64,000 bases of DNA, taken from positions 930,001 through 994,000 of the forward strand of contig NZ_PTXL01000001.1 in NCBI RefSeq assembly GCF_004343775.1, read 5' to 3'. Below are positions 42,166-62,086 of this stretch, in pieces; within the stretch, counting starts at the first letter, position 1; every line of letters starts with the position of its first letter. The position numbers and the translations under genes are program-made. This DNA comes from Burkholderia sp. SRS-46 (GTDB taxonomy: Bacteria; Pseudomonadota; Gammaproteobacteria; Burkholderiales; Burkholderiaceae). Below the pieces are notes generated by a model, which worked only from the letters and a program-made list of their open reading frames with translations, ran no database searches and was not told the DNA's origin.

Positions 42166-42201
42166 GGTGTCTCCTTCCATGGCGCGCCGGTCGGTGGCGC
42201 A

Positions 42202-42228: not shown

Positions 42229-42401
42229 CCGCGTGGCGATCGGCATGTCAGCCTAGGGAAATCCCGGGCGTTGCGCGAACGGGCGAGGGCGAGGTGGTCG
42301 GATTTCATACCAGTCCGATGGACACCTGGATGGGGCGCGATCACCATCGAGGGCTCGGCGGCGCGCCGTCGTCCAGCCATCGACCCACCCGAGACTGCCT
42401 C

Positions 42402-42905: not shown

Positions 42906-42937
42906 AGCGCGGTGCTGTTCGGATGCGGGAAATGAGA

Positions 42938-42960: not shown

Positions 42961-42982
42961 GAGGAATCCTGGTGCGGAAATG

Positions 42983-43012: not shown

Positions 43013-43022
43013 ATAAATCGAG

Positions 43023-43109
43023 TGGTGCCCAGGAGAGGACTCGAACCTCCACGATGTTGCCACCGCTAGGACCTGAACCTAGTGCGTCTACCAATTCCGC
43101 CACCTGGGC
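43023..43109 (-). tRNA. tRNA-Leu(CAG), copy 1
   Basis: An 87-nt tRNA including an encoded CCA. The acceptor stem is GCCCAGG/CCTGGGC with discriminator A. The D-arm GGCGGAATTGGTAGACGC is followed by the anticodon stem CTAGG and loop TTCAGGT, giving anticodon CAG. A long variable arm (CGGTG-GCAA-CATCG, one G-U pair) and T-arm GGAGG-TTCGAGT-CCTCT complete the class II leucine tRNA. It is transcribed from the consensus promoter at 43145-43172. Confidence 0.97.
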
Positions 43110-43139
43110 ACGTTTCGCTTGTTGCTGCATCGCGAAAGA
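43023..43139. repeat. 117-bp direct repeat, left copy (tRNA-Leu and its 5' flank)
   Basis: This block is repeated at 61970-62086 in the same orientation with a single mismatch (43054 A versus 62001 G). It comprises the tRNA plus 30 bp of 5' flank. Weaker similarity continues on the 3' side of the tRNA (GCGGAAATGAAAAA at about 42974-42987 and 61924-61937). Confidence 0.95.
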
Positions 43140-43144
43140 CCGCA

Positions 43145-43172
43145 ATTATAAAGCAGTCGCGATGAGTGTCAA
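43145..43172 (-). promoter_or_regulatory. Sigma-70 consensus promoter of tRNA-Leu copy 1
   Basis: On the minus strand TTGACA (43172-43167) and TATAAT (43150-43145) are both perfect, with a 16-bp spacer, placed 35 bp upstream of the mature tRNA 5' end. Confidence 0.9.
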
Positions 43173-43212
43173 CAGGTTTTTCGCGCCCGATTGAAAAATA
43201 TCCGTCGCGCGC

Positions 43213-44025
43213 TCAACCCGCCGACGCCAGATCCTCCTCGGATGCGGCCCGTTCGGCGAGCGTCACGTAGTCGCCCGACACCGTGCGCTCGACGCGCGCA
43301 TCCACGCGATACGCGCGCCGCAGGTTGGCGGGCGTCAGCACCTCGGCCACGCCGCCGTCGGCCAGCACGCCGTCGCGGCCGAGCAGCACGAGGCGATCGC
43401 AGAAACGCGCCGCGAGATTCAGGTCGTGCAGCGCGACGAGCGCGATTGCGCCGCGCCGCGCGACCGCGTCGCGCATCGCCTCCAGCGCGAGCAACTGCCA
43501 GCGCAGGTCGAGCGCGCTCGTCGGCTCGTCCAGCAGCAGCAGCGGCGTGTCGCGCACCAGCACCTGCGCGAGCCCGACCATCTGACGCTGTCCGCCCGAC
43601 AGCCGGTCGAGCGACGTCGTCGCGAGCGGATGCAGGTTCAACTGGTCGAACACCCGTTCGAGGCGGGCTTCCTGCGCGTCGGCGGACAGGCCGCCGCAGG
43701 TCGCGCGCAGCGCGCCGCGCACGGCCTCGTAGACGAGCAGCGACGTCGGCTGCGGCAGCGTCTGCGGCAGATAGCCGACTCGCCGCATGTGGTCGCGGCG
43801 CGCGCCGCGCAGCAGGTCGTGCCCGTCGAGCGTGACCGCGCCGCGCGCGGCGACGAGCCGGGCCAGCGCGCGCAGCAGCGTCGACTTGCCGACGCCGTTC
43901 GGGCCGAGCAGCGCCACCGCGCTGCCGGGCGGGATCGCCTGCAACGACAGCCGCGCGAGGATCGTGCGCGCGCCGTACGCGACGTCGAGGCGGTCGATGC
44001 ACAGGCCGTGCGGCGGCTTATCCAT
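43213..44025 (-). CDS. Siderophore/iron ABC transporter ATPase (FecE/FhuC type)
   Basis: A 270-residue ATPase with Walker A LLGPNGVGKST at about residue 42, signature LSGGQRQMVGLAQVL, Walker B LLLLDEPTSALDLR and the H-loop HDLNLAARF. It belongs to the FecCDE/FhuBCD importer class. Its start overlaps the permease gene by 8 bp, so the two subunits are made together. The closest relatives carry ferric siderophores or haem; the neighbouring catechol genes favour a catecholate. Confidence 0.92.
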   Translation of the reverse strand: MDKPPHGLCIDRLDVAYGARTILARLSLQAIPPGSAVALLGPNGVGKSTLLRALARLVAARGAVTLDGHDLLRGARRDHMRRVGYLPQTLPQPTSLLVYEAVRGALRATCGGLSADAQEARLERVFDQLNLHPLATTSLDRLSGGQRQMVGLAQVLVRDTPLLLLDEPTSALDLRWQLLALEAMRDAVARRGAIALVALHDLNLAARFCDRLVLLGRDGVLADGGVAEVLTPANLRRAYRVDARVERTVSGDYVTLAERAASEEDLASAG

Positions 44026-45082
44026 CGTGCCTCCTGCGGCGGCTGATCAGCGTCATGAAGAGCGGCACGCCGACCAGCGCGGTGATGATGCCGATCGGCA
44101 GCACGACGCCCGTGACGAGCGTCTTGCTGAGCACCGAGGCGGCGGACAGCATGATCGCGCCGGCCAGCGCCGCGCCGGGCAGGTAATGGCGATGGTCGTC
44201 GCCGACGAGCAGCCGCGCGACGTGCGGGCCGACGAGGCCGACGAAGCCGATCGTGCCGACGAACGACAGCGCGGTGGCCGACAGCAGGCTGATGCGGATC
44301 AGCGTGACGAGCCGCAGCCGCTCGACCGCGATGCCCATGCTGCGCGCCTGTTCCTCGCCGGCGCGCAGCGCGGTCATCGACGCGACGCCCGGCGCGGACC
44401 ACACCGCGCAGAACGCAAGCACGCACGCGAGGATCGCGATCTTGCTCCAGGTCGCCCGCGCGAGGCTGCCCATGCTCCAGAACACGATCTGCTGGAGCGC
44501 ATTCGCGTCGGCGACGAATTGCAGCAGCCACAGCAGCGCCTCGAAGCTGAACATCAGGCCGATGCCGAACAGCACGACGGTTTCGGTCGTCGCGCCGTGC
44601 CGCCACGCAAGCCACACGATCAGCAGCGTCGCGCCGAACGCGCAGCCGAACGCGCCGAGCGACAGCGCGAGGTTCTCGTTCCACAGCACGAGATGCCAGC
44701 CGGAGATCACGACCAGCGATGCGCCGACGCTCGCCGCCGCGGCGATGCCGAGCGTGAACGGGCTCGCGAGCGGATTGTTCAGCACGGTCTGCATCTCCGC
44801 GCCGGCGAGCCCGAGCGACGCGCCGACGAGGATCGCCATCAGCGCATACGGCAGGCGCACGTTCCACAGGATCACGCGCTGCTCGAGCGGCAGCGCGTCC
44901 GGGCGCAACAGCCCGGCGACGAGATCCGCGACCGGGAACGACGACGGGCCGGTGGCGAGGTCGACGACCAGCAGCGCGACGAGCACCGCCGCGAGGGCCG
45001 CGAGCACGCCGACGCGTCGCGCGGCGATCGCCCGGTAGCGGCGCTTCAGCGACACGGGCGGAACCGGGGCCGTCGTGCTCAT
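44018..45082 (-). CDS. Siderophore ABC transporter permease (FecCD family)
   Basis: A 354-residue membrane protein with about ten hydrophobic segments and FecCD motifs: VRLPYALMAILVGASLGLAGAEMQ, NPLASPFTLGIAAAASVGAS and GTIGFVGLVGPHVARLLVG. One permease is encoded, so it should act as a homodimer with the ATPase at 43213-44025. The start at 45082 overlaps the upstream hydrolase gene by 4 bp. Confidence 0.93.
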   Translation of the reverse strand: MSTTAPVPPVSLKRRYRAIAARRVGVLAALAAVLVALLVVDLATGPSSFPVADLVAGLLRPDALPLEQRVILWNVRLPYALMAILVGASLGLAGAEMQTVLNNPLASPFTLGIAAAASVGASLVVISGWHLVLWNENLALSLGAFGCAFGATLLIVWLAWRHGATTETVVLFGIGLMFSFEALLWLLQFVADANALQQIVFWSMGSLARATWSKIAILACVLAFCAVWSAPGVASMTALRAGEEQARSMGIAVERLRLVTLIRISLLSATALSFVGTIGFVGLVGPHVARLLVGDDHRHYLPGAALAGAIMLSAASVLSKTLVTGVVLPIGIITALVGVPLFMTLISRRRRHDG

Positions 45083-46044
45083 GCGGGAACCTCGCGATGA
45101 TCCGGCGCGCACGCGATGCGCGCGGCCAGCGCCGCGCTCGGCACCACGACGCCACCGTGGTCCTCGCCGTCGATCAGCCGGAACGTTGCGTCGACGCCCG
45201 CGCGGCGGCCCACGCGCCGCACGAAGTCGCGGGCCGAGCTGACCTGCTTGCGCGCCTGTTGCCGGCGCATGCGTTCGGCGTCGGGATGCGGCGCGCCTTC
45301 CTCGAGGCTGCCGGCGGTCACCACGACGCGCAGCGTCGGGTCGAGCGGCGCGGTCGCGGCGGCGAAGCGGTCCGCGTACGGCAGCAGCGCGCGCTCGCCC
45401 CACCAGATCGACGGGCTGGCCGCGACGTAGCGGCGGAACAGGTGCGGGCGCGTCAGCAGCGCATACAGCGTCAGCAGCCCACCGTAAGAGTGGCCGAACA
45501 GCGTCTGCCGGTCCGCATCGATCGGCCATTGGCGCGCGAGCCACGGCTGCACGTCGTGCTCGATGAAATCGAGGAAGCGGTCGGCCACGAGGCCGGGTCC
45601 GTTCGGCAACGGCGCGAGCGTGTAGTCGTCGGCGCGCGCCTGCATGTCGTACGGCGCATCGGTCGGATAGCCGATGCCGATCACGACCGGCGCGGGATCG
45701 TGCCCGGCGTCGGGCCGCGCCGCGCGGTTGCGCGCGAGCGGCGCGGCGAGCGGAAACAGCGCGTTGCCGTCGAGCACGACCAGCACCGGATGCGGCGCGC
45801 TGGTCGAGCGTTCGGCCGGCAGCGCGACGAACAGGCGGCGGGCGCGGCCCGCGACGGTCACGTCGAACTGGTGACTGTCGGGAATCCGGACGGGCGGCGC
45901 GTCGGCGGGCGCGGGCCACGCGGGGGTATCGGCGCGATGGGCTGGATCGGCCGCGGCGCCGGCGGGTGCGATGCGGGTTGCAAGCGCACCCGCCAACCCG
46001 GCGAAGAGCAGATTGCGACGCATGATGGACAGAGGCTCCGGCAT
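45079..46044 (-). CDS. Exported alpha/beta hydrolase, probable siderophore esterase (Fes/IroE type)
   Basis: A 321-residue protein with a hydrophobic signal (RRNLLFAGLAGALATRIAPAGAA). The nucleophile elbow GHSYGG is in the esterase_D-type fold (VLVVLDGNALFP; ASPSIWWGERALLPY), with the final His in DGEDHGGV. This class includes IroE and BesA, periplasmic esterases that cleave catecholate siderophores. Its place between the permease and the binding protein supports an iron-release role. The exact substrate is unknown. Confidence 0.82.
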   Translation of the reverse strand: MPEPLSIMRRNLLFAGLAGALATRIAPAGAAADPAHRADTPAWPAPADAPPVRIPDSHQFDVTVAGRARRLFVALPAERSTSAPHPVLVVLDGNALFPLAAPLARNRAARPDAGHDPAPVVIGIGYPTDAPYDMQARADDYTLAPLPNGPGLVADRFLDFIEHDVQPWLARQWPIDADRQTLFGHSYGGLLTLYALLTRPHLFRRYVAASPSIWWGERALLPYADRFAAATAPLDPTLRVVVTAGSLEEGAPHPDAERMRRQQARKQVSSARDFVRRVGRRAGVDATFRLIDGEDHGGVVVPSAALAARIACAPDHREVPA

Positions 46045-46045
46045 G

Positions 46046-47185
46046 TCACGACCCTTCCTGGATCCAGTACTCGCCGTTCAGCGGGACCGGCTGGAAGCGG
46101 CGCACCATCGTGTCGAACGTGCGGCGCGGGTCGAGATCCGCGAACAGGTCCGGATGCAGCCACTTGGCCATCGCCTGCACCGCGACCACGTTGAACGGCG
46201 AGTTGTAGAAGTGATGCCAGATCGCATACGCGCGGCGTTCGCGCACCGCGCGCAGCGGGGCGATCGTCGGGCGTTGCAGCGCACGGTCGAGCGAGCGCAC
46301 GGCGGCGTCGCGCGTCACGCCGGCGCCCAGCGCGATGCGCTGCGGCGCGCTCTGCAGTGTGCGGGCCGAACCGATCGCGGTGCCGATGTAGACGTCGGGC
46401 TGGCGGCTCAGCAGGTATTCCGGGTTCAGCGTGCCGTGCTCGCCCGGCACGCGGCCTTTCGCGATGTTCTCGCCGCCGGCCGCGTCGAGCAGGCGGCCGA
46501 GCATGCCCGTCATCGTGTCGCAGCAATCGTCGGACAGCCCCACGCGGCTTTCGAGGAAGACGCTCGGCGCGGCCGGGCGCGCGGCCTTCAGGCGGTTGCG
46601 CACCAGGTCGAACTGCTGTTGCCACAGCGTATTGAAGTCGGCCGCGCGTTGCTGCGCGCCGAACACCTGGCCGAGCAGCGCGATGCTGCGCGTGGTGTTG
46701 ACGAGCGGATCGTGGCGGAAATCGACGAACACGATCGCGACGCCCGCGGCCTCCAGCCGCGCGAGCGTCTCGCGATCGCGCTCGCCGGGCCCGTGGCCGC
46801 CGCCGAGCCCGAAGATCGCGACCTGCGGCCGCAGCGCGAGCGCGCGCTCGTCGCTGAAGCTGCCGGCCTGCGAGCGGCCGATGCGCGGCACGTCCTTCAG
46901 CCGCGGAAAGCGCTCGAGCCACTGCGCGTAGCTCGCGGGGTCGAGCTGTTCGAAGTCGCCCATCATGCCGACGAGCCGGCGCGTCGGGTCGTCGCCGTCG
47001 ACGACGGCAAGCGCCGGCAGCAGGCGGCCTTCGCCGAGCAGCACGCGCTCGACGCGCGCGGGGATCGTGACCTGGCGGCCGGCGAGGTCGGTGACGGTCC
47101 TGGTGTCCGCATGCGCGGCATGCATCACGAGCCATCCGCACATCCATGCGCCGAGCGTGGCCCACATTCCGCTTGTCTTTCTCAC
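46046..47185 (-). CDS. Siderophore ABC transporter substrate-binding protein
   Basis: A 379-residue periplasmic protein of the FecB/BtuF class. It has a signal peptide ending AAHA at about residue 26, then TRTVTDLAGRQVTIPARVERVLL, the classic start of the cluster A helical-backbone fold, and ALRPQVAIFGLGG. It hands the ferric siderophore to the permease 963 bp downstream. It is the first gene of the minus-strand importer set, and a Fur-like palindrome is at 47204-47226, just upstream of its ATG. Confidence 0.9.
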   Translation of the reverse strand: MRKTSGMWATLGAWMCGWLVMHAAHADTRTVTDLAGRQVTIPARVERVLLGEGRLLPALAVVDGDDPTRRLVGMMGDFEQLDPASYAQWLERFPRLKDVPRIGRSQAGSFSDERALALRPQVAIFGLGGGHGPGERDRETLARLEAAGVAIVFVDFRHDPLVNTTRSIALLGQVFGAQQRAADFNTLWQQQFDLVRNRLKAARPAAPSVFLESRVGLSDDCCDTMTGMLGRLLDAAGGENIAKGRVPGEHGTLNPEYLLSRQPDVYIGTAIGSARTLQSAPQRIALGAGVTRDAAVRSLDRALQRPTIAPLRAVRERRAYAIWHHFYNSPFNVVAVQAMAKWLHPDLFADLDPRRTFDTMVRRFQPVPLNGEYWIQEGS

Positions 47186-47203
47186 GTGACTCCCGATACG
47201 ATA

Positions 47204-47226
47204 TAAATGAGAACAATTCTCATTTA
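47204..47226. promoter_or_regulatory. Fur box in the divergent importer/AraC promoter region
   Basis: Perfect inverted repeat TAAATGAGAA-CAA-TTCTCATTTA. The inner 15-mer TGAGAACAATTCTCA matches 11 of 14 defined positions of the Fur dyad TGATAATnATTATCA. It is 19 bp before the binding-protein gene and about 100 bp before the AraC gene, so iron would repress both directions. Confidence 0.8.
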
Positions 47227-47325
47227 ATTGTAACCGAGAGACGGGGCCGGAGCGGACGCTGTCCGTTTGACCGAACGACTAAATAGTTTGCGCGAGCACA
47301 GGGCCGCGCGCGGGGGATATCCGAG

Positions 47326-48315
47326 ATGACTGCGTGGGCGCCAGGCGCTTTCCATTCCGATTGCCATCGACACGACGCGCACGTCGCGCGGATCCGCGAA
47401 GTGCGGCCGGGGCTGCGCGTGCATGCGGACGACGCGACCGACGAATTCGACGCGGTGATGTCCGGCCAGTGCACGCCGGGGCTGCACCTCGTGCTGCTGC
47501 TGGAGGGCGCGCTCGACGTGTCGTACGGCGATCGGCGCGTGCTGCTGACGACCGACGCTCGCCGCGCGTGCCGCGACGGCGCGGCGCGGCACGGCGCACG
47601 CCGGCCGAGCGTGCGCATGCAGTCGTTCCTGCTCAACGCGCTGCAGCCCGACACGTTCCGCCGGCGCCTGAGCAAGGGCGGCTACGCGCGGCGGCTCAGC
47701 CTCGCGATGTCCGGCGAATGGCTCGCGCACCTGCAGGCCGCGAGCCGCGCGGCGCTGCCGCAGCGGCTCGATTCGATGCTGTCCGCGCATCTCGCGATCC
47801 ATTTCTGGCAGCCGACGCCGCGCGCGGCCGCGCTGGCCGAGCAGATCGTGCGGCCGCCGGCCTACCAGCCGATGCTGCAGGCGATCTACCTCGAAAGCCG
47901 CGTGCTCGAACTGCTCGCCGAGGCGTTCGCGCCGCTCGAAACGGACGAGGCCGATGTGACGGAGGCAGCGGATGCGGCGCTCGGTTCGCGCGACTATCGC
48001 CGGATGGCCGAGCTGCGCGCGTTTCTCGCGAGCGACGCCGCGCAGGCGCTGTCGCTCGACGACATCGCGCGCCACGTCGGCATGAGCGCGAACGCGATGC
48101 AGCGCCAGTTCCGCACCGCGTATGGCACGACGGTGTTCGACTTCATCCGCGAGCACCACCTGCAGCGCGCGCGGCTCGCGCTCGAGCGCGACGCGGTGAG
48201 CGTCAAGCAGGCCGCGGCGCTCGCCGGCTACACGAGCGCCGCGAATTTCGCGACCGCGTACAAGCGCCGGTTCGGCGTGACGCCGACGCTCGCGCGGCGC
48301 AGCGCGAGCCGCTGA
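47326..48315 (+). CDS. AraC-family regulator (PchR-like)
   Basis: A 329-residue protein. The N-terminal part (about 1-220) is a sensing domain like that of siderophore-responsive PchR/YbtA regulators (CTPGLHLVLLLEGALDVSYGD). The C-terminal 100 residues hold two AraC helix-turn-helix motifs (LSLDDIARHVGMSANAMQRQF and VSVKQAAALAGYTSAANFATAYKR). Its position between importer and receptor suggests that it activates the locus when the ferric siderophore is present. Confidence 0.88.
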   Translation: MTAWAPGAFHSDCHRHDAHVARIREVRPGLRVHADDATDEFDAVMSGQCTPGLHLVLLLEGALDVSYGDRRVLLTTDARRACRDGAARHGARRPSVRMQSFLLNALQPDTFRRRLSKGGYARRLSLAMSGEWLAHLQAASRAALPQRLDSMLSAHLAIHFWQPTPRAAALAEQIVRPPAYQPMLQAIYLESRVLELLAEAFAPLETDEADVTEAADAALGSRDYRRMAELRAFLASDAAQALSLDDIARHVGMSANAMQRQFRTAYGTTVFDFIREHHLQRARLALERDAVSVKQAAALAGYTSAANFATAYKRRFGVTPTLARRSASR

Positions 48316-48393
48316 CGGATCGCGGCGGCGGCGCTCAAACGAGTTCGAAGCTTTCGCAAAGATTTCGGCGCATTACAGGCCACATAATGCAAA

Positions 48394-48408
48394 TGAGAAT
48401 CAATCACA
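48394..48408. promoter_or_regulatory. Fur box upstream of the TonB-dependent receptor
   Basis: TGAGAATCAATCACA matches 10 of 14 defined positions of the Fur dyad. It lies inside a wider inverted repeat with arms CATAATG (48383-48389) and CATTATG (48407-48413), 25 bp before the receptor start. Confidence 0.65.
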
Positions 48409-48432
48409 TTATGGGTCACCGAAAGCGTCATC

Positions 48433-50559
48433 ATGTCGAGTCACGTTGCGAAGTGGGCATTGAAGCCGGCCGTCGTCGCCGGCCTGTATCTGATGGGGTC
48501 GTCGTGCGGATGGGCGCAGACGCCTGACACGCCGGCGGACGCGAGCGCGTCGGCCGATCCGGCCGCATTGAAGGAGATCGTCGTCACGGCGAGCCGCCGC
48601 GAGCAGGCGATCAAGGAAGCGCCCGCCAGCATCTCGGTGATCGGCCGCGACGAGATCGAGGCGAAGCCCTATACGTCGGTGGCCGAGATCGTCGGCAACG
48701 TCGAGGGCGTGAGCGTCGTCGGCGCGTCGCCGAACGACCAGGACATCTCGATTCGCGGGATGCCGGGCGAATACACGCTGCTCCTCGTCGACGGCCGCCG
48801 GCAGAACACGCGCGAAACGATGAACCGCGGCACCTCGGGCGTGCAGTCGAACCTGATGCCGCCGCTGTCCGCGATCGAGCGCATCGAGGTCGTGCGCGGG
48901 CCGATGTCGTCGCTGTACGGCGCCGACGCGATGGGCGGCGTGATCAACGTGATCACGCGCAAGGTGCCCAAGCGCTGGGGCGGCACGCTCACCGCGAGCA
49001 GCGTGTGGCAGCTCGAATCGAAGCAGGGCGACACGCAGAGCGTCGATTTCTGGCTCGGCGGGCCGCTGAAATCCGACGTGCTCGGGCTGCAGGCGTCCGG
49101 GCGCCTGCTGCATCGGGGCGAGGACGATCTCTACTATCCGGCGAGCGCGACGAGCGGCGCGAACGGCCAGCGGATCGGCAGCTTCGACGTGAAGCTCGCC
49201 GCGAAGCCGACGCGCGACCAGGACGTGAGCGTGAACGTCGGGCGCGAACAGCTCACCTATCTCAGCACGCCGGGCAAGAGCGCGGCGGCGCTCACGCCGC
49301 GCACGGCGGCCACCGCGATCACCGAGACGCGCCATATCCGCGACTACTGGGGCATCACGCACGACGGCCGCTGGGGCTTCGCCAACACGACGCTGTCGCT
49401 GTACGGCGAGCGCGGCGTGCAGGAGCAGTGGACGCCGACGGGGCGCTCGCCGGTGAAGCCGGTGCTGACCGACACGATCCTCGAAGGCAAGGCCGAGGTG
49501 CCGTGGTGGGGCGAGCGCAACATCCTGACGCTCGGCGGCCAGCACATCTGGTCGCGGCTCTCCGGCGTCGGCACCCAGGACGCGGTGCCGAAGGGCTATG
49601 CGGCGAACTCGGACAGCGTCACGCGCAACGCATGGGCGCTGTTCGGCGAGAACGACTTTTTTCTCAACGACCGCTTCACGCTGACGACGGGCCTGCGGCT
49701 CGACCACGACGACCGCTACGGCAGCCACGTGAGCCCGCGCGTGTACGGCGTGTTCAAGCTGAGCCAGGCGTGGACGGTGCGCGGCGGCGTGTCGACCGGC
49801 TTCCGGCCGCCGTCGCTGCGCCAGAGCACGGCGGGGTACTGCATGACGTCGGGTGGCGCGGCGGGCGCGGTGCCCGGCACGCTGTGCGGCAATCCGGACC
49901 TGAAGCCCGAAACGAGCGTGACCGAGGAGCTCGGCGTGCGCTACGACATGGGCGACACGTATGCCGGCCTGACGCTGTTCAACAACCTGTTCAAGAACAA
50001 GGTCGCGAGCTACGACACGGGCATTGCGGACCGGCACTCGCCGGGCCGCAACGTGTACGTGTACGACAACATCGACCGGGTGCGCCTGTACGGCCTCGAG
50101 CTGGGCGCGGGCACGCGCCTGTCGCGCACGCTGAAGGTGTCGGGCGGGTACACGCTGACGCAGTCGCGCCGCGAAGGCAGCGGCGAGAAGGCGTTCAACG
50201 GCGGCTCGCTCGACGGCCAGCCGCTCGACAAGACGCCGAAGCACAAATTCAACGTGCAGGTCGACTGGACGCCGATGCCGAAGCTCGACCTGTATGCGAC
50301 GGCCAACTACATCGGCAACGAATACTGGGCCGCGTTCCGCAACGGCGCGCAGGGCGTGCGCGAGCGGCCGTCGACGACGACCTTCGACCTCGGCGGCCGT
50401 TACCGGATCGACAAGCGCTTCTCCGTCAACTTCGCGGTGCTGAACCTCACCAACCGGATGGTGCCGATCGACGATCGCACCCGCGCGAACGGCCTGAGCG
50501 GCAACTGGCTGGTCGATCAGGGCCGCCGCGTCGCGGTGAGCGTCACCGCCGAGATGTGA
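48433..50559 (+). CDS. TonB-dependent siderophore receptor
   Basis: A 708-residue outer-membrane receptor. The signal peptide ends SCGWAQ at about residue 29. The TonB box is probably KEIVVTASRRE near residue 50, followed by the plug domain (PYTSVAEIVGNVEGVSV; RIEVVRGPMSSLYGADAMGG) and a 22-strand barrel ending in RVAVSVTAEM with an aromatic-poor C-terminus. It resembles the FepA/IroN/colicin I receptor class and should take up the ferric catecholate made by the downstream genes. The Fur box at 48394-48408 is directly upstream. Confidence 0.92.
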   Translation: MSSHVAKWALKPAVVAGLYLMGSSCGWAQTPDTPADASASADPAALKEIVVTASRREQAIKEAPASISVIGRDEIEAKPYTSVAEIVGNVEGVSVVGASPNDQDISIRGMPGEYTLLLVDGRRQNTRETMNRGTSGVQSNLMPPLSAIERIEVVRGPMSSLYGADAMGGVINVITRKVPKRWGGTLTASSVWQLESKQGDTQSVDFWLGGPLKSDVLGLQASGRLLHRGEDDLYYPASATSGANGQRIGSFDVKLAAKPTRDQDVSVNVGREQLTYLSTPGKSAAALTPRTAATAITETRHIRDYWGITHDGRWGFANTTLSLYGERGVQEQWTPTGRSPVKPVLTDTILEGKAEVPWWGERNILTLGGQHIWSRLSGVGTQDAVPKGYAANSDSVTRNAWALFGENDFFLNDRFTLTTGLRLDHDDRYGSHVSPRVYGVFKLSQAWTVRGGVSTGFRPPSLRQSTAGYCMTSGGAAGAVPGTLCGNPDLKPETSVTEELGVRYDMGDTYAGLTLFNNLFKNKVASYDTGIADRHSPGRNVYVYDNIDRVRLYGLELGAGTRLSRTLKVSGGYTLTQSRREGSGEKAFNGGSLDGQPLDKTPKHKFNVQVDWTPMPKLDLYATANYIGNEYWAAFRNGAQGVRERPSTTTFDLGGRYRIDKRFSVNFAVLNLTNRMVPIDDRTRANGLSGNWLVDQGRRVAVSVTAEM

Positions 50560-50619
50560 TGGCCCGGCCGGCGCCGCGCGCGCCGGCTCATTCAATCTGG
50601 AAAGCTGGAGGTCAATCTC

Positions 50620-51804
50620 ATGAACATGCTGTCCCGTCCTTCGACACTGTTGGCACCCCGAAACATCTGGGAGCTCTATCGCCCCGACACGCCGCTGTTC
50701 CTCGCGACGCCGGACCATGCGCTGCTCGCGACCGATGCGGCGCAGGCCGTGCCGCACGGCGATGCGCCGCTCGCGGCACGCGTCGCGCAGGCGCTGCGCG
50801 ACGCCCGTGCGAGCGGGTACGCGGACGCGGCGGTGGTCGGCGCGGTGCCGTTCGACGTCGAGGCGCCCGCCGCGCTGCGGGTCGCGCGCACGCTGCTGCG
50901 CGCGGCGCCGCTCGGCTCGCCGCATGCGCCCGACCTTGCGGCGACGCGCCATGCGACGCGCGCGGTGCCGCCGGCGAACGTCTATGCGGACGCGGTGGCG
51001 CAGGCCGTCGCGCGTATCCGCGCGGGCGAGCTCGACAAGGTCGTGCTGGCGCGCACGCTCGAGATCACCGGTGACCGGCCAGTTGAGGTCGCGCCGCTCG
51101 TCGCGCGCCTCGCGGCTCGCAATCCGCATGGCTATACGTTCTCCGTCGATCTCGGCGCCGGCCGGACGCTGCTCGGCGCGAGCCCGGAACTGCTCGTGAA
51201 CCGCTTCGGCGGCATCGTCCGCGCGAATCCGCTCGCGGGCTCCGCGCCGCGCAGCCCCGATCCGGTCGAGGATCGCCGCCGCGCGGACGCGCTGCTCGCA
51301 TCCGTGAAGGATCTCGACGAGCATCGGGTCGTCGTCGAGGCCGTGCGCGACAGCCTCGCGCCGCTGTGCCGGCGCCTCGACGTGCCGGCGCGTCCGTCGC
51401 TGGTGCACACCGAGACGATGTGGCACCTGTCGACCGAGGTGCGCGGCGAAACCGACGCGGACGCGCTGACGCTCGCGCTCGCGCTGCATCCGACGCCCGC
51501 GGTCTGCGGCGCGCCGCGCGCGGCCGCACGCGCGTGCATTCGCGACGCGGAGCCGTTCGACCGCGGCTTCTACGCGGGGATGCTCGGCTGGGTCGATACG
51601 CACGGCGACGGCGAATGGGTCGTGACGATCCGCTGCGCGGAAGCGCGCGACCGCACGCTGCGGCTTTATGCGGGCGCGGGCGTCGTCGGCGAATCGACGC
51701 CCGACGGCGAGCGCGCGGAAACCGCCGCGAAATTCCGCACGATGCTCGACGCGCTCGGCGTGAGCCGCGACGTCGCCGCGGATGCGCTGACGGAGGGGGC
51801 GTGA
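50620..51804 (+). CDS. entC: Isochorismate synthase (EntC/DhbC type)
   Basis: A 394-residue chorismate-using enzyme converting chorismate to isochorismate, the first committed step of 2,3-dihydroxybenzoate synthesis. Conserved motifs are [43 protein letters not shown] and [20 protein letters not shown] precedes the ATG. It follows the receptor gene by 60 bp and overlaps entE by 1 bp. Confidence 0.93.
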
Positions 51805-53417: not shown

Positions 53418-53474
53418 CCAACGCGCGGGCGGCACGCATCGCCCGCGCATGAACATTTTCAACAGCACTCCATC

Positions 53475-54350: not shown

Positions 54351-54667
54351 CCGCGCGCACGATGCAGGATGCGCAGCCCGCGCCGTTCGTCAGCACCGCC
54401 GAAGTCACGCTGGCGCAGGCCGACCGCGTGCTGTTCAAGCTCTGCAAGCACTACGCGATCAAGGTGCCGGTCGTCTTCGACGAACACCGCGCGACGGTCG
54501 ACTTCCCGTACGGCGTCTGCCGGATGCTGCGCAGCGACGACGTGCTGAGCCTGCGCTGCGAGGCCGATGCCGCCGACAAGCTCGCGCAGATCCAGTACGT
54601 GATGGACGAGCACCTCGCGCTGATGTCGCGCAACCGGCAGCTCGTCGTCGCGTGGCAGCGCGCGTGA
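54347..54667 (+). CDS. DUF2218-family small protein in the siderophore operon
   Basis: A 106-residue soluble protein (AEVTLAQADRVLFKLCKHYAIKVPVVFDEH; ATVDFPYGVCRML), a DUF2218 member. Such proteins are frequent next to siderophore biosynthesis or uptake genes, but their activity is unknown. It overlaps entB by ATGA and precedes the NRPS by 49 bp, the position where an MbtH-like protein is often found. It does not carry the MbtH tryptophan pattern. Confidence 0.8.
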   Translation: MTARTMQDAQPAPFVSTAEVTLAQADRVLFKLCKHYAIKVPVVFDEHRATVDFPYGVCRMLRSDDVLSLRCEADAADKLAQIQYVMDEHLALMSRNRQLVVAWQRA

Positions 54668-54716
54668 CGCGCGCCGCCCGTTTCCCGTTCAACGCATTCC
54701 CGTGGCTACCCCCTTC

Positions 54717-57700
54717 ATGGAACTCGAAGACCAACCGATGCGCGCGACGTCCGCGCAATACGGAATCTGGGTCGCGCAGCAAGTCGATCCGGACGATCCG
54801 GGCTACCTGACCGCCGAGACGATCGAGCTCGACGGCGCGCTCGACGCGGCCGCGCTGGCCGATAGCGTCGCGACCGTGCTCGACCATGCCGATGCGCTGC
54901 ACATGCGCTTCGAATGGCGCGACGACGCGCTCTGGCAGCATCGCCGGCCGCCGTGCACGCGGCTGGCGCTCGTCGATTTTTCCGCGCAAGCGGATCCCGC
55001 GCAGGCCGCACGCGCGTGGATGGCCGCGTCGCTGTCGACCTGCTGCGACGTGACGGCCGATCCGCTGTACCGCACCGCGCTGCTGCGGCTGTCGCCGACG
55101 CGGCACTGGTGGTATCTGCAGGTACATCACATCGCGCTCGACGGCTTCGGCTACAGCCTGCTCCAGCAGGCGGTGGCGACCCGCTACAGCGCGCGCGTCG
55201 CGGGCGCCGTGCCGCCCGCGCTGCCGGACTGGCGCATCGACCGCGTCGTCGACGCGGAGGCGCGCTATCGCGCGAACGGCGGCTTCGATGCCGATCGCGC
55301 GTTCTGGCGCGACCATCTGCACGACGTGCCGGCGCCGCTCGTGCTGGCGCCGAAGCAGGAGATCGGCGCGAACGCGCTGCGCGAGACGCTGCTGCTCGAT
55401 GCCGATCGCGTGCACGCGCTGCGCGCGGCCGCGGAGCGGCTCGACGTCGACTGGAACGCGTGGCTGCTGTGCGCGATCGGCCTCTGGCTCGCGAAGCAGG
55501 GCGGCCAGCGCGACCTGACGCTCGGCCTGCCGGTGATGAACCGCCTCGGCACGCCGGCGCTCGGCGTGCCGTGCATGGCGATGAACATCGTGCCGCTGCG
55601 CGTGCATGTCGATGCCGATCGGTCGCCGCGCGCGCTCGCCGCCGACATGGCCGGCCGGCTGCGCGCGATGCGGCCGCACCTGTACTACCGGTATGGGTGG
55701 ATCCGTGGCGATCTCGGGCTGCTGGAGCGCAACGCGTTCCTGTTCAACCAGGCGGTCAACGTGATGCCGTTCGAGCGCGAGGTCGCGTTTCGCGGGCTCG
55801 CGAGCCGCACCTGCGCGGTCAGCGGCGGCCCGGTGAAGGACCTGAACGTGACGGTCGCGGTGCGCGCCGGCACGTGGCAGGTGACGCTCGAAGCCAATCC
55901 GAATGCATACGACACGGCGCGGCTCGCCGCGTATGCGCGGTCGTTCGCGGACTGGCTCGACACATTCGCCGCGCATGCGCCGGAGGCGCCCGTCGCGCCG
56001 CTGCTCGGCGATTTGCCGCCGCCGTCGATCCTGTGCGGCACGCCGCTGGCCGGGCCGCATCCCGACGTGCTCGCAGGTATCGCGCGCATCGCACGGGACG
56101 CGCCGACGCGCACGGCGATCGAGGCGGGCGACGCGCGCATCGACTATCGCACGTTGCTCGACCACGTCGACGCGCTCGCGGCCGCGCTCGCCCGGCACGG
56201 CGCGACCGGCGGCTGCCGCGTGGCGATCGCCGCGCCGCGCGCGCCGGACGTGATCGCGGCGATGCTCGCGGTGCTGCGGATCGGTGCGGTGCTCGTGCCG
56301 CTCGACCCGGACGGCCCGCCACAGCGAACCGCGGCGATGCTCGCCGACGCGGCGCCCGCGCTCGTGATCACGCGGGGCAAGTATCACGCGTGCGCGGGCG
56401 GCTTGCCGACGCTGGATCTCGATGCGCAGTGCGCGCCGGCGGCAGTCGCGGGCACGTACGACGTGGCGCCGCCGGGCGATCAGCCTGCGTACCTGCTCTA
56501 TACCTCGGGTTCGACCGGCACGCCGAACGGCGTGCTGGTCGGGCGCGGCGCGCTCGCGCAGTTCGTCGCGAGCACGCGCGAGCGCTATCGCGTCGGTCCG
56601 GACGACCGGGTGCTGCAGTTCGCGCCACTGCATTTCGACGCGAGCTTCGAGGAGATTTTCGTCACGCTGTGCAACGGCGCGACGCTCGTGCTGCGCGACG
56701 ACGCGATGCTCGATTCGGTCGACGCATTCGCGGCCGAGGTCGAGCGGCGCGGCATCACGGTGCTGGATCTGCCGACCGCGTATTGGCACGTGCTCGCGCA
56801 TGCGCTCGACGCGCGCCACGCGCAGCAGCTTCGCCACGTGCGCCTGACCATCATCGGCGGCGAGGCCGCGCTGCCCGAGCGGATCCGGCGCTGGCGCGCG
56901 CGCCTGCCGGGGCAGACGCTGCTGAACACCTACGGGCCGACCGAGGCGACGATCATCGCGACCGCCGCGTGCGTCGGCGGCCCGGACGCGGCCTGGCGGG
57001 ACGGCGAGCCGGTGCCGATCGGCACGCCGCGCGCAGGCGTCGAAGCGCGGATCGTCGATGCGCGCCTGTATCCGGTCGCGGCGGGACGCAGCGGCGAACT
57101 GGTGCTCGCCGGCGATGCGCTCGCGCTCGGCTATCCGCGCAATCCGGCGCTGACGTCCGAACGCTTCGTGACGCTGCCCGGCACCGGCGCGCGCGCGTAC
57201 CGGACCGGCGATCTCGCGACGCTGCGCGACGGCCGGCTCTGCTTCGACGGCCGCATCGACCATCAGGTGAAGATCAGCGGCGTGCGCATCGACCCGCGCG
57301 AGATCGAGGACTGGCTGCTGCGGTTCCCGGCCGTGCGCGAGGCGGCGGTGGTCGCGTTGCGCAGCGACGCGGGCGCGACGACGCTCGCGGCGTTCGTCGC
57401 CGGGACCGACGATGTCGCCGTGCTGCGCGCGCAGCTGGCCGACGCGCTGCCGTCCGCCGCGATTCCCGATGCATGGCACGTGCTCGACAGCCTGCCGCGC
57501 AACGCGAACGGCAAGACCGACCGCAACGCGCTGATTCGGCTCGCCACGCAGCGGCGCGCGGCGCCGGACGACGCGCCGCAGGCCGGCGCGCTCGAGCGGC
57601 AGGTGATGCGCGTCTGGCGTGAAGTGCTCGGCGATATCGCGCTCACGCCGGCCTCGAATTTCTTCGACGTGGGCGGGAAGTCGCTGCAGGCGATCCAGGC

Positions 57701-58631
57701 GAGCGCGCGACTCGCGAGCGAACTGGGGCGCGACGTGCCGGTGTCGCTGCTGTTCCGGCACGCGAGCGTCGACGCGCTGGCGGCCGCGCTGCAGGCGCCG
57801 CTCGCCTACCGGCCGCGCACCGCGCACGACGCGTTCGCGCCGCATCTCGCGATCCAGACGGGGCGCGACGGCGGGCCGCGGCTCATCTGCATCCATCCGG
57901 CCGACGGGCTCGCGTGGAGCTATCTGCGGCTCGCCGCCCATCTGCCGGACATCGCGGTGGACGGCCTGCAACTGTCGATCGACGACACCCGGCGCGCGGC
58001 GGATTTCGATGCGCTCGTCGCGACCTATGTGCGACGCGTGCGCGCGCTGCAGCCGGACGGCCCGTATCACCTGCTCGGCTGGTCGCTCGGCGGCGCGCTC
58101 GCGCACGCGGTGGCCGCGGCGCTCGCGCGCGACGGGCAGGCGGTCGGCCTGCTTGCGCTGATGGACAGCTATCCGGCGTCCGCGTGGGCGGCGCAGGCGC
58201 AGCCCGCGCCGGCGGATGCGCTGCGCATCCTGCTCACGGTGAACGGCGACTTCGACACCGGCGAACTGTCGGACGACGCATTGCGGCAGCGGCTGCTGCG
58301 CGCGAACAGCCCGTTCGCGGCGCTCGGCGCGGCGGGGCTCGACGCGTTCGCCGACGCGACGCTGCGGCAGATGCGGCTGTTCCGCGCGGCACGGACGCCG
58401 CGCTACGACGGCGCGCTGCTGCTGTTCAACGCCGCGCGCAAACGGCCCGGCATGCCGCTGCCCGACAGCTGGCGCGCGCATCTGGCGCCGGACGCGCTGA
58501 CGTGCTGCGCGCTCGATTGCTCGCACGACGGGATGTCCGATCCCGAACCGATGGCCGCGATCGGCGCTGCCGTCGCGGAACGGCTCGCCGCTGCAGTTTC
58601 CGGCGGCTTGATTTCAAGGAATTCGAAATGA
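54717..58631 (+). CDS. Siderophore NRPS, C-A-T-TE (EntF-like architecture)
   Basis: About 1304 residues. The condensation domain (about 5-440) has HHIALDG at 137-143. The adenylation domain (about 455-940) has [11 protein letters not shown] near 596 and Lys933 in NGKTDR. The carrier serine is Ser989 (GGKSLQAI), and the thioesterase (about 1040-1300) has GWSLGG with Ser1123. The pocket residues read D641, A642, E645, D684, I712, G714, T738, I746, I747, K933 (DAEDIGTIIK). EntF for serine has DVWHFSLVDK. Two acidic side chains suggest a basic amino acid. The start is uncertain: GTG 54702 or ATG 54717 or 54738. It should condense DHB from EntB with that residue; the stop overlaps entA. Confidence 0.92.
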
Positions 58632-59425
58632 TGAATGCACAGACAGGGATGACATTTCCGGGCCAGGTCGCCGTGGTGAGCGGCGCGGCCCAGGGTATCG
58701 GCGCGGCGGTCGCGCGCGCGCTGGCCGCGCGCGGGATCGAGGTCGCCGCGTTCGATATCGACGGCGGCGCGCTGGCGCGGGTCGCGGCCGACGGCGCGGC
58801 ATCCGGTGCGCGCATCCACCCGTTCACGGTGGATGTCGCGGACGCGGCCGCCGTGCGTGACGCGGTCGATCAGGTGGAAGCGACGGTCGGTCCGATCGGC
58901 ATGCTCGCGAACGTCGCGGGCGTGCTGCGGCTCGCGGCGGCGACGTCGCTGAGCGATGCCGACTGGGCACACTGCTTCGCGGTGAATACGCACGGGGTGT
59001 TCCATCTGTCGCGCGCGGTCGCGCAACGGATGGTCGCGCGCCGCGCCGGCAGCATCGTCACGGTCGGCTCGAACGCGGCGCTCGTGCCGCGCATGCAGAT
59101 GGCCGCGTATGCGGCGTCGAAAGCGGCCGCGCACCAGTTCACCCGTTGCCTCGGGCTCGAGCTGGCGCCGCACGGGATCCGCTGCAACATCGTCGCGCCG
59201 GGCTCGACCGATACGCCGATGCAGCGCCAGTTGTGGACCGGGCCGGAGGGCCCGGCGGCGGTGATCGCCGGGTCGCTCGACGCCTATCGCACGGGCATTC
59301 CGCTCGGCCGCATTGCCGCGCCGGACGATGTCGCGGAAACGGTGCTGTTCCTGCTGTCCGACGCGGCGCGTCACGTGACGCTGCACAGTCTGTGCGTCGA
59401 CGGCGGCGCGACGCTCGGCGCGTGA
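58628..59425 (+). CDS. entA: 2,3-dihydro-2,3-dihydroxybenzoate dehydrogenase (EntA type)
   Basis: A 265-residue short-chain dehydrogenase. The NAD motif [13 protein letters not shown] is at about residue 17, NVAGV follows, and the catalytic YAASKAA is near residue 158 with Ser of GSNAA before it. It oxidises the EntB product to 2,3-dihydroxybenzoate. AAGGA precedes the start, which overlaps the NRPS stop (ATGATG). Confidence 0.93.
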
Positions 59426-59462
59426 CCGGAGGCCCTAGCGGATTCCCCTTTCGGAGCAATCG

Positions 59463-60569
59463 ATGAAACAGATTTCCGCCTGCGTCGGGCAGGGGGCGGC
59501 CGGCGCGTTCGCCGAGCCGCCCCGCGACGAACGATGGCGCGTCGGCATGCGGCTGCCGGCGCCGGACGCGCTGCGCCGCGACGTGCCGGCCTCGGGCGCC
59601 GCGCGCGCGACCGTGGAAGCCGGCCGGCGCGTGCTGCGCGCGATCCTCGAGCGCCGCGACACGCGCCGCATCGTGGTCGTCGGGCCGTGCTCGATCCATG
59701 ATCCCGACGCGGCGCTCGACTATGCGCGGCGGCTCGCGCGGCTCGCGCACGCGGTGCGCGACGCGTTCTGCGTGGTGATGCGCGTGTACTTCGAGAAGCC
59801 GCGCACGACGGTCGGCTGGAAAGGGCTGATCAACGATCCCGGGCTCGACGGCAGCCATCGCGTCGTGGACGGGCTGCATGCCGCGCGCCGCCTGCTGGCC
59901 GACATCAATGCGCTCGGCCTGCCGGCCGCGATCGAGGCGCTCGACGTCGTCACGCCGCATTACCTGTGCGACCTCGTGAGCTGGGCGGCGATCGGCGCCC
60001 GCACGACCGAATCGCAGGTGCATCGCGAGCTGGCGTCGGGGCTCGCGATGCCGGTCGGCTTCAAGAACGGCACCGACGGCCAGATCGACATCGCCGCGCA
60101 CGCGATGCTGGCCAGCATGCGGCCGCACACCTTCATCGGCATCGACGGCGCGGGCGGCCCCGCGCTGCTGCACAGCGACGGCAACCCGCACGCGCACCTG
60201 GTGCTGCGCGGCGGCCGGCACGGGCCGAATTACGACGCGGCGTCGGTGGCGGCCGCCGCCGATACGCTGCGCGCGCAGCGGCTGCCGCCGAACCTGCTGG
60301 TCGACTGTTCGCACGCGAACTGCGGCAAGCAGGCGGAGCGGCAGCTTGCCGTGCTGGACGACGTCGTCGGGCAGATGTGCGCCGGCAGCGACGCGATCCG
60401 CGGCGTGATGCTCGAGAGCTTTCTCGAGGCGGGCGCGCAGCCGCTCGGCGGCCCGCTGCGCTACGGCTGCTCGATCACCGATCCGTGCCTGGGCTGGGAT
60501 GCGACCGAGGACGCGCTGCTGCGCTCGCGCAGCCGATGGCTCGCGCGGGACAGCGGCCGCATCGGCTGA
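59463..60569 (+). CDS. 3-deoxy-7-phosphoheptulonate (DAHP) synthase, class I
   Basis: A 368-residue type I DAHP synthase (AroF/G/H family) with VVVGPCSIHDPDAAL, the YFEKPRTTVGWKGLINDP substrate loop, GFKNGTDG and DCSHANCGK with its metal Cys. It catalyses the first step of the shikimate pathway. A dedicated copy in a catechol cluster would raise chorismate supply when iron is low. The usual housekeeping copies lie elsewhere; whether this one is feedback-sensitive cannot be told. Confidence 0.92.
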   Translation: MKQISACVGQGAAGAFAEPPRDERWRVGMRLPAPDALRRDVPASGAARATVEAGRRVLRAILERRDTRRIVVVGPCSIHDPDAALDYARRLARLAHAVRDAFCVVMRVYFEKPRTTVGWKGLINDPGLDGSHRVVDGLHAARRLLADINALGLPAAIEALDVVTPHYLCDLVSWAAIGARTTESQVHRELASGLAMPVGFKNGTDGQIDIAAHAMLASMRPHTFIGIDGAGGPALLHSDGNPHAHLVLRGGRHGPNYDAASVAAAADTLRAQRLPPNLLVDCSHANCGKQAERQLAVLDDVVGQMCAGSDAIRGVMLESFLEAGAQPLGGPLRYGCSITDPCLGWDATEDALLRSRSRWLARDSGRIG

Positions 60570-60596
60570 CGCGCGCCTTCTTCAATCAATCACGGG

Positions 60597-61841
60597 ATGG
60601 ACATGTCGACGACTTCCGCCGAACCCCTGCAAACGCCGGCCGACGCCGGCACACGTTACCTGCCGCTGCTGCTCGCGAATCTCGCGATGGTGGCCGGCAC
60701 TTACGCATTCGTCGCGATCGCCGGCCCGCTGGCGCGCCGGATGCATCTCGGGCCGCTGCATATCGGCGCGATCATCGCGAGCGTCGGGCTCGTGTGGATC
60801 GTCGCCGCGCCGCGCTGGGGCCGCGCGGCGGACACGCGCGGCCGGCTGCCGGCGATGCGCGCCGCGATCGGCGGCTTCGTCGCCAGCTTTCTGCTGCTGG
60901 CCGGCTACGTCGGCTGGGCACTGCTGGGCAACGGGGGCGCCGTGCCGCCGATGTGGGCGAGTTTCGCCGCGCTGCTTGCGACGCGCGCGGCAATGGGCGG
61001 CTGTTACGCGGGCTTGCCGGTCGCGGCGACTGCGTGGATCGCGGACCGGACGGCCGTCGCGGGACGCGCGGCGGCGCTGGCGCGCTTCGGCGCGGCGGGC
61101 GCGGTCGGGATGGTGATCGCGCCGCCGCTCGCCGGCTGGCTCGCGGGATACGACATGACGCTCGCGCTCGCGGTGTTCGCGCTGCTGCCGCTCGCGGGCC
61201 TGCCGGGGCTGCGCCGCTTGCGCGACGACGGGCCGCGCGCCGCGCGGCGGGCGCCGGTGCGGCTGAAGCCGACCGATCCGCGGCTGCGCCTGCCGTGGTG
61301 GAGCGCGTTTGCACTGTACAGCGTCGTGATGATCGCCAACAGCGCGCTCGGCTTCTACGTAATCGACCGGCTGCAGGTCGGCGCGCGCGACGCGTCGGCG
61401 GTGGTCGGCTATGCGCTCGGCAGCGCGGGCGTCGGCCTGATCGCGATGCAGTCGCTCGTCGGGCGGCTGCGGCGGGTCGCGCCGCGGCAGTGGCTGCGAT
61501 GGGGCGCGCTCGTCGGCGGCGTCGGCTTTGTATCGACGCTGGCGGTCGAGCCCGCGCAGCCGTTGCTGATGTGCGCGAGCTATCTGGTGGCGGCCTGCGG
61601 GATGGGCGCGGCGTTTCCGGCGGTCGCGGCGCTCGCGAGCACGCGGGTCGACGCGCACGAGCAGGGCGCATGCGCGGGCGCGATGTCGGTCGCGCAGGGG
61701 CTCAGCATGGTGGTCGCGCCGCTCGTCGGCAGCGCGCTTTACGAACTGAATCCGGCGGCGCCGTTCGCGGCGATCGGGGTGGTGCTGGCGGGGGTGTTCG
61801 TCGGGACGTGGGGCAGGCGGCGGGGCGCGCAGGCGGTGTGA
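60597..61841 (+). CDS. MFS transporter, candidate siderophore exporter (EntS-like role)
   Basis: A 414-residue protein with 12 predicted transmembrane segments. The family motif is GRAADTRGRLPAMRAA after helix 2. It is the last gene of the biosynthesis operon, 28 bp after the DAHP synthase, where EntS-type exporters are found in enterobactin clusters. Export of the catecholate is therefore the likely role, but sequence alone does not set the substrate. A second ATG at 60603 is possible. A terminator follows at 61866-61890. Confidence 0.82.
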   Translation: MDMSTTSAEPLQTPADAGTRYLPLLLANLAMVAGTYAFVAIAGPLARRMHLGPLHIGAIIASVGLVWIVAAPRWGRAADTRGRLPAMRAAIGGFVASFLLLAGYVGWALLGNGGAVPPMWASFAALLATRAAMGGCYAGLPVAATAWIADRTAVAGRAAALARFGAAGAVGMVIAPPLAGWLAGYDMTLALAVFALLPLAGLPGLRRLRDDGPRAARRAPVRLKPTDPRLRLPWWSAFALYSVVMIANSALGFYVIDRLQVGARDASAVVGYALGSAGVGLIAMQSLVGRLRRVAPRQWLRWGALVGGVGFVSTLAVEPAQPLLMCASYLVAACGMGAAFPAVAALASTRVDAHEQGACAGAMSVAQGLSMVVAPLVGSALYELNPAAPFAAIGVVLAGVFVGTWGRRRGAQAV

Positions 61842-61865
61842 TGTCGCGCGTCCACGGAAAGACGA

Positions 61866-61890
61866 AAAGCCCGCTTTGGCGGGCTTTCAG
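61866..61890 (+). terminator. Terminator after the siderophore operon
   Basis: Stem AAAGCCCGC (61866-61874) and its complement (61879-61887) with a 4-nt loop lies 25 bp beyond the MFS stop. Confidence 0.75.
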
Positions 61891-61934
61891 TGCTTAGGCG
61901 GGGAGGCGTGTTGCTTCCTGGGCGCGGAAATGAA

Positions 61935-61959
61935 AAAGGCCGGCATTTAGCCGGCCTTT
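61935..61959 (-). terminator. Terminator of tRNA-Leu copy 2
   Basis: A 10-bp stem AAAGGCCGGC (61935-61944) and its complement (61950-61959), next to an A tract that reads as T on the minus strand, is 10 bp from the tRNA 3' end. Confidence 0.8.
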
Positions 61960-61969
61960 CAAAAACAGA

Positions 61970-62056
61970 TGGTGCCCAGGAGAGGACTCGAACCTCCACG
62001 GTGTTGCCACCGCTAGGACCTGAACCTAGTGCGTCTACCAATTCCGCCACCTGGGC
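61970..62056 (-). tRNA. tRNA-Leu(CAG), copy 2
   Basis: The 87-nt sequence matches tRNA-Leu copy 1 at 43023-43109 except for one base in the variable arm, where CACCG replaces CATCG and turns a G-U pair into G-C. The anticodon is CAG and CCA is encoded. It has its own promoter at 62092-62119. Both copies look functional. Confidence 0.97.
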
Positions 62057-62086
62057 ACGTTTCGCTTGTTGCTGCATCGCGAAAGA
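61970..62086. repeat. 117-bp direct repeat, right copy (tRNA-Leu and its 5' flank)
   Basis: This is the partner of the block at 43023-43139, 116 of 117 bases identical, in the same orientation. The 18.8 kb between the two copies contains only the iron/siderophore genes. Confidence 0.95.

Follow-up and report, generated by a model that had tools for sequence, protein, structure and literature searches.

The 64,000-nt window analysed here (Burkholderia sp. SRS-46, contig NZ_PTXL01000001.1, positions 930,001 to 994,000; genome G000, 8.59 Mb, contig C11) contains a set of iron-uptake and catechol-siderophore genes lying between two reverse-strand tRNA-Leu(CAG) genes, tRNA1 and tRNA2. A first reading of the letters alone, here called the sequence-only reading, had described this as a simple island bracketed by a direct repeat of the tRNA gene and able to come and go by recombination between the two copies. 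Much of the description stands. The 117-bp stretches at 43023–43139 and 61970–62086 are on the same strand and a single base apart (116 of 117 identical), far beyond chance; weaker similarity does persist 3′ of the tRNAs, as terminator-like hairpins; the 18.9 kb between them holds solely iron-uptake and catechol-siderophore genes by Pfam and NCBIfam; and base composition shows no marked change (72.3% G+C in the cluster, 69.8% in the window). The repeat is real, but the two-copy picture is incomplete: a third copy, 100% identical to copy 1, lies past the window end (G000:C11:1017158-1017274, or 87158 in window numbering), with its tRNA (tRNA3) ~25 kb to the right of tRNA2 and adjoining the RNase R gene (rnr). 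Comparison across the genus makes it reasonably probable that whole arrays of this kind pass between species by integrase-free homologous recombination, with recombination among the repeats in addition.

The order at the locus is sugar-type ABC and ROK genes, tRNA1, slot 1, tRNA2, slot 2, tRNA3 and rnr (RNB domain), followed by a SpoU methylase gene (Table 1). By reading, every tRNA copy is preceded by a promoter-like leader, with words resembling TTGACA and TATAAT in reverse, and followed by a GC hairpin that carries a T-run. Slot 1 cargo in G000 is 18.6 kb and ends ~105–135 bp short of the repeats. As judged from its domain content, it bears the signature of a catechol siderophore cluster: isochorismate synthase, 2,3-dihydroxybenzoate (DHB)-AMP ligase, isochorismatase with a carrier domain, nonribosomal peptide synthetase (NRPS) and receptor. 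The CHASE2 gene falls inside the second interval of the array; slot 2 (~25 kb) holds this kinase, a chitinase, a lytic polysaccharide monooxygenase, a secretion ATPase and secretin, and chaperone-usher fimbrial genes. There is no integrase among the genes read between tRNA1 and tRNA2 (Pfam/NCBIfam), and none of the 16 PF00589 integrase matches in G000 (E ≤ 1e-6) is on contig C11. A plasmid search with 42300–48300 gave 79 matching records, none reaching 80% coverage.

Table 1. Features of the array and its left border, in window positions (tRNA3 lies beyond the window).
Feature	Position	Strand	Basis and remarks
ROK-family regulator gene	40915..42180	-	PF00480; with a sugar-type ABC ATPase on its left (PF00005; "sugar" by reading) forms the left border of the array
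19-bp conserved stretch	42249..42267	+	Left ancestry switch in both mapped exchanges; 1 window match, 0.01 expected
OsmC-like gene	42402..42905	+	PF02566; between left core and tRNA1, variable
tRNA1, tRNA-Leu(CAG)	43023..43109	-	ARAGORN
117-bp repeat, copy 1	43023..43139	+	Sequence comparison; tRNA plus 30 bp of 5′ leader
Slot 1 cargo unit	43246..61841		DNA alignment; single block at other chromosomal sites in relatives
ABC transporter ATPase, iron-uptake operon	43213..44025	-	PF00005
Open reading frame (ORF) with Fe-siderophore/BtuC-type permease at residues ~298–631	44018..45919	-	NCBIfam, below curated cut-offs; true start internal
Esterase, perhaps ferric-siderophore hydrolysis	45079..46044	-	PF00756; function inferred
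Periplasmic binding protein	46046..47185	-	PF01497, NCBIfam
AraC-type regulator	47326..48315	+	Domain match
TonB-dependent receptor, siderophore type	48433..50559	+	Domain match; NCBIfam below curated cut-offs
Isochorismate synthase	50620..51804	+	PF00425; TIGR00543 above cut-off
2,3-DHB-AMP ligase	51822..53417	+	TIGR02275 above cut-off
Isochorismatase with carrier domain	53475..54350	+	PF00857, PF00550
DUF2218 protein	54308..54667	+	PF09981; start probably internal
NRPS, C-A-PCP-TE, EntF/MxcG-like	54702..58631	+	Domain matches; NCBIfam below curated cut-offs
Short-chain dehydrogenase, EntA-like by position	58632..59425	+	PF00106; start approximate
DAHP synthase	59463..60569	+	TIGR00034 above cut-off
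MFS exporter	60597..61841	+	PF07690
tRNA2, tRNA-Leu(CAG)	61970..62056	-	ARAGORN; repeat copy 2 is 61970..62086
CHASE2 histidine kinase	62465..64000	+	First gene of slot 2

The array was surveyed in 65 genomes of the genus, one per species. Three tRNA-Leu(CAG) copies were found in 51, four in one and fewer in 13, several of which are fragmented drafts; counts are lowered where drafts split over contigs (for example G001, G016, G025, G039, G043, G045), and G057 (82% complete) gave no match. Several draft assemblies break at the repeats. Three copies are on a single contig in 48 genomes, with a median of ~410 bp for slot 1 and ~1.6 kb for slot 2 (lengths approximate to some 20 bp). Lengths span ~150 bp–19.1 kb for slot 1 and ~230 bp–81 kb for slot 2, and exceed 5 kb in seven and 12 of the 48, respectively; contents differ in those examined, and accessory-gene turnover between the borders is high. 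The 81-kb slot 2, in G034 (L138–L142), has no integrase among the matches listed. The slots are filled independently: G010 and G062 combine the siderophore with a slot 2 of ~1 kb, and G044 the slot 2 block with a slot 1 of 232 bp. Arrays were read as DNA in 37 genomes, the remainder being placed from tRNA coordinates. Among the 37, rnr adjoins a tRNA in 36 (the G051 contig lacks it); the left core block (38000–42270) was found in 29 (in G048 on a separate contig), but neither close to the array in G011, G052, G017, G021, G036 and G041 nor on the short G045 and G025 contigs. Conserved core genes thus flank the array on both sides across genomes, and the array itself usually consists of three self-contained tRNA-Leu(CAG) units enclosing two independently filled cargo slots. 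The OsmC-like gene to the left of tRNA1 is, by reading, only a 3′ remnant in G010, G062 and G022.

The tRNA was matched in 89 of 120 family genomes sampled, which include 11 of this genus. Outside the genus there are one or two copies, with three in six genomes of genus g3, on separate contigs or far apart. Genera g10 and g20 have tandem tRNA pairs with a distance of 220–350 bp, so tandem copies predate Burkholderia; the three-unit row, with arrays mapped within the genus only, was seen in Burkholderia only.

The siderophore NRPS (E ≤ 1e-200) occurs in 20 of the 65 genomes, a patchy distribution such as the sequence-only reading had proposed. Seven of these have it at the tRNA site: G000, G059, G062, G010 and G022, plus the divergent G052, where the cluster lies between two tRNA-Leu(CAG) genes, and G025, whose contig shows the right-hand tRNA alone. 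Nine have it at a second site beside a nitronate monooxygenase gene (by flank alignment for seven, by the neighbouring gene for G049 and G061); where one contig carries both, in six genomes, this site and the tRNA array are 255–330 kb apart. The other four (G021, G036, G039, G043) have it elsewhere. Homology at the second site starts at 43246–43247 and, in the cases with a fetched right end, stops at 61789–61841, so what recurs as a unit is largely one and the same block; the DAHP synthase gene is absent from the second-site clusters of G031 (L111/L112), G034 (L107/L108) and G002 (L116/L117). Matches that might have been clear tRNA remnants at the non-tRNA sites are just 13–16 bp long and were rejected. 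In G048 (L159, L125), slot 1 opens with siderophore-cluster DNA beside tRNA1, and the alignment ends immediately ahead of the NRPS, for which this genome gave no match at E ≤ 1e-200; this partial cluster may reflect a deletion or an assembly gap.

An rpoBC tree of 39 of the 65 genomes (root chosen on G014 and G028; some inner nodes weak, 0.00–0.24) was compared with a tree of four siderophore genes (the best aligned piece of each) from 19 of the 20 synthetase-positive genomes, G043 being excluded for a stop in its gene. The deep groups agree except for G010, which is placed beside G008 in the main clade by rpoBC (1.00) and beside G062 by the siderophore genes (1.00). G063 is the sister of G062 in the rpoBC tree (0.99). 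These two genomes, G010 and G063, are where array ancestry conflicts with core ancestry, switching at the array edges, the first as a gain of the cluster and the second as a loss.

Despite its different rpoBC clade, G010 carries a 20.5-kb array resembling that of G062, and the two have their 1-kb slot 2 partly in common. Median identities over 250-bp windows make the conflict plain: the G010 left core (32 windows) is 98.0% identical to G008, 95.2% to G044 and 90.4% to G062; its array (148 windows) is 97.6% identical to G062 (range 89.6–100) with no match to G008 or G044; and its rnr region (26 windows) returns to 98.4% for G008, 96.4% for G044 and 93.6% for G062. The converse is seen in G063, whose array is empty, 1.1 kb long and similar to the G064 one, with three tRNAs kept. 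Core windows of G063 are mostly 97–100% identical to G062, while its inner array windows are 98.0–99.2% identical to G064 and the edge windows 95–96%. Ancestral polymorphism was considered for this pair and rejected, the 98.0–99.2% of the inner array standing against mostly 85–96% between the G064 and G063 cores.

Informative sites place the switches at 5471–5500 and 25981–25991 in G010 and at 6314–6344 and 7455–7465 in G063. Both genomes switch at the same alignment positions, on the left at the 19-bp conserved word and on the right at TTGATGCCG, ~45 bp before the rnr ORF, so that the mapped switches fall in two short stretches outside the whole three-tRNA array. Strong haplotype divergence inside the edges probably explains why they coincide. 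The claim that gain and loss proceed by crossover at the two tRNA repeats is not supported.

A different event is suggested by G023, which has a single tRNA between the left core and rnr. Its positions 6316–6900 are 95.9% identical to the tRNA3 unit of G019, and 5901–6394 align (79.7%, gapped) to the left of tRNA1 in G019; the overlap of ~78 bp, comprising terminator and tRNA 3′ end, is likely the crossover segment. By this alignment a deletion between repeats would have left one hybrid unit, so the repeats can apparently recombine. Collapse to one tRNA, as the sequence-only reading expected of excision, is therefore seen, but the G023 siderophore cluster sits elsewhere, at the second site.

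The arrangement that would best account for these observations is a passage of whole arrays, full or empty, between species, by double homologous recombination of incoming DNA in the conserved ROK-side and rnr-side flanks. The repeated modules of tRNA, terminator and leader would meanwhile recombine among themselves, giving collapse as in G023 and similar leaders among copies. The chief role of the tRNAs would be that cargo between self-contained units disrupts nothing and that any one surviving copy preserves tRNA function. The alternative with which the work began, RecA recombination between two tRNA repeats that excises or inserts the 18.9 kb and leaves one tRNA in the empty state, can draw on the 117-bp repeat itself, on the collapse between repeated modules in G023 and on leader sequence common to the copies within a genome, as if converted. 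It is nevertheless quite doubtful, since single-tRNA relatives lacking the siderophore did not appear as predicted: slot 1 is free of the siderophore in 43 of the 48 three-copy genomes, and 36 of the 48 lack the synthetase at E ≤ 1e-200, yet tRNA1 and tRNA2 are kept in all 48. Negative relatives with both tRNAs at this place are what the sequence-only reading had itself named as counting against it. Moreover, the sole empty genome of the siderophore clade (G063) holds three tRNAs, a siderophore-specific fusion of tRNA1 and tRNA2 is not seen in the 37 arrays read as DNA, and insertion of one circle should add a tRNA copy, whereas filled and empty arrays both have three. With the third copy present and tRNA number independent of cargo, the simple two-repeat excision island was rejected.

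The absence of a site-specific route, also part of that reading, fits the comparisons better: no integrase was found with the cluster, and the evidence favours homologous over site-specific recombination. Burkholderia islands do target tRNA-Leu 3′ ends, according to the available part of Tuanyok et al. (2008; PMC2612704), and G011 has a tyrosine integrase (L025:6881-8227, minus strand) ~0.9 kb outside tRNA1. Even so, insertion of the cluster at a tRNA-Leu 3′ end by a since-lost tyrosine recombinase is very improbable: the repeats are complete tRNA genes with leader rather than 14–56-bp 3′ ends, none of 12 genomes has a PF00589 integrase between tRNA1 and tRNA3 among the matches listed, and the block stops short of the repeats and shows no recognisable tRNA remnant where it lies at other sites. 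The locus as found is not a tRNA 3′-end site-specific island, having neither an integrase nor a short 3′-end boundary. An old, immobile locus that began at the tRNA site and was passed on by vertical descent, with losses and relocations through chance rearrangement, is unlikely as the explanation, although it has more than the tree agreement in deep groups to recommend it. The tRNA site is occupied in the G000 clade as well as in the deep G052/G025 branch, in which the G052 cluster lies between two tRNA-Leu(CAG) genes and that of G025 next to the visible one; tRNA-site ancestry with later moves is parsimonious and may be correct, the alternative being two entries. G010 and G063, however, require array exchange between species.

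Several observations weigh against exchange of whole arrays as the full account. The siderophore tree matches the species tree in G000, G059, G022 and G062, so vertical descent explains most of the siderophore's distribution. The switches practically coincide with the array edge, and no donor core came in with the array; since an ordinary double crossover would usually bring some flank with it, either later erosion by within-clade recombination or an unexplained edge preference would be needed. Single sites contradict the switch on each side, and the identity ranking fails in three G010 windows at 28126–28376. Right beside tRNA1, at 5844–5863 in G010, six of seven informative sites are G008-like, so the left flank is itself a mosaic. 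Further short foreign tracts lie to the right of the array in both genomes, which suggests that the region recombines generally: in G010 (L017) a second G062-like tract at 29376–31251, to the right of rnr and the SpoU methylase gene and unmatched in the main-clade genomes compared, and in G063 a short G064-like tract within the rnr block (9601–9901). With one genome per species, no within-species polymorphism is seen. Finally, slot 1 of G011 contains aromatic meta-cleavage-type genes and an IS21-type transposase pair, and conventional island entry at the 3′ side of the array seems to have occurred there; together with its integrase, this pair indicates that further mechanisms are active at the locus.

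A more ambitious possibility is a RecA-driven cassette platform, in which modules of terminator, tRNA 3′ end, tRNA-like element (see below), tRNA and leader would be kept as exchangeable joints around two slots, with at least one tRNA unit surviving and with crossovers favoured on the left at the 19-bp stretch and on the right at the rnr leader. If true, this would be a functional integrase-free counterpart of the integron; it is considered a long shot.

Array exchange by homologous recombination has parallels, and the locus is judged to be a fresh variant of known integrase-free recombination hotspots. As in the flank-recombination hotspots of horizontal gene transfer in the available part of Oliveira et al. 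(2017; PMC5635113), there are fixed core borders, variable cargo, border ancestry switches and no integrase inside among the matches listed; compared with what is described there, complete tandem tRNA units here split the locus into two independently filled slots, and the switches of both mapped exchanges lie immediately at the array edges rather than within core genes. The B. pseudomallei tRNA islands, in the corresponding part of PMC2612704, are in the same genus and beside tRNA genes (one a tRNA-Leu), and have 14–56-bp tRNA 3′-end repeats, mostly with mobility genes; here, in contrast, whole tRNA units flank cargo without mobility genes. The cargo has 2,3-DHB synthesis, NRPS, receptor and exporter genes in common with clusters of the enterobactin, cepaciachelin and myxochelin kind (cepaciachelin, available part of PMC13251462). 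By comparison with the cepaciachelin cluster, it has one NRPS (C-A-PCP-TE) plus DAHP synthase and DUF2218 genes, a relationship of theme only. Titles found in literature searches on tandem tRNAs with islands, integrase-less Burkholderia islands and siderophore transfer at tRNA-Leu included none recognised as this array. What the locus offers is a concrete case, mapped within tens of bases, of how species can acquire and lose an adaptive cluster with no mobile element involved. It also indicates that a tandem tRNA array can serve as a multi-slot address, and that tRNA direct repeats flanking an island need not be its excision sites. Island finders may miss such loci, which can have normal base composition and no integrase and at whose repeats several of the drafts here are split.

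Behind many of these tRNA-Leu genes there is, by reading, a tRNA-like element of ~106–107 nt (for example L016:5710-5816, minus strand, and 27 other Leu copies). It starts with the tRNA's own acceptor strand and closes with the final 21 nt of that tRNA, CCA included, after which comes a terminator-like hairpin; the predicted fold is -71.6 kcal/mol (z -7.4). A covariance model built on the 28 Leu sequences matches in 48 of the 65 genus genomes. Twenty places fetched off the array (L227–L246) are behind tRNA-Asp(GTC) in 16 cases and tRNA-Ser(GGA) in four, most copying the ends of their own tRNA and some altered. G000 has a copy at G000:C21:255320-255425 (minus strand), with none reported on the window contig C11.

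Covariation was assessed on 25 sequences (10 of the 28 Leu and 15 of the 20 others), leaving out the most degenerate and some near-duplicates; the acceptor stem and last hairpin, where the alignment slips, were uncounted. In the 26 counted pairs, 98.9% of cells are paired, compared with 85.7% in shuffles; 11 pairs change both sides, and none of 500 shuffles scored as high for covariation. Further pair types are no more numerous than in shuffles (147 of 500). Some of the covariation is to be expected from the copying of different tRNAs, though by reading helices 1 and 3 are not tRNA-derived. Rfam at gathering score found only the tRNAs at four loci, and at E ≤ 1 nothing covering the element at three, a weak sX4 match overlapping its first bases in L231. 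No title found in literature searches describes such elements. The family is seemingly undescribed, a candidate new structured RNA or palindromic tRNA-end element, and a pooled model matches in 26 of the 120 family genomes and seven of 25 genera. Elsewhere in the window, the h2cR small RNA (RF02369) is matched at 23221–23358 on the plus strand with 89.6 bits, above the gathering score.

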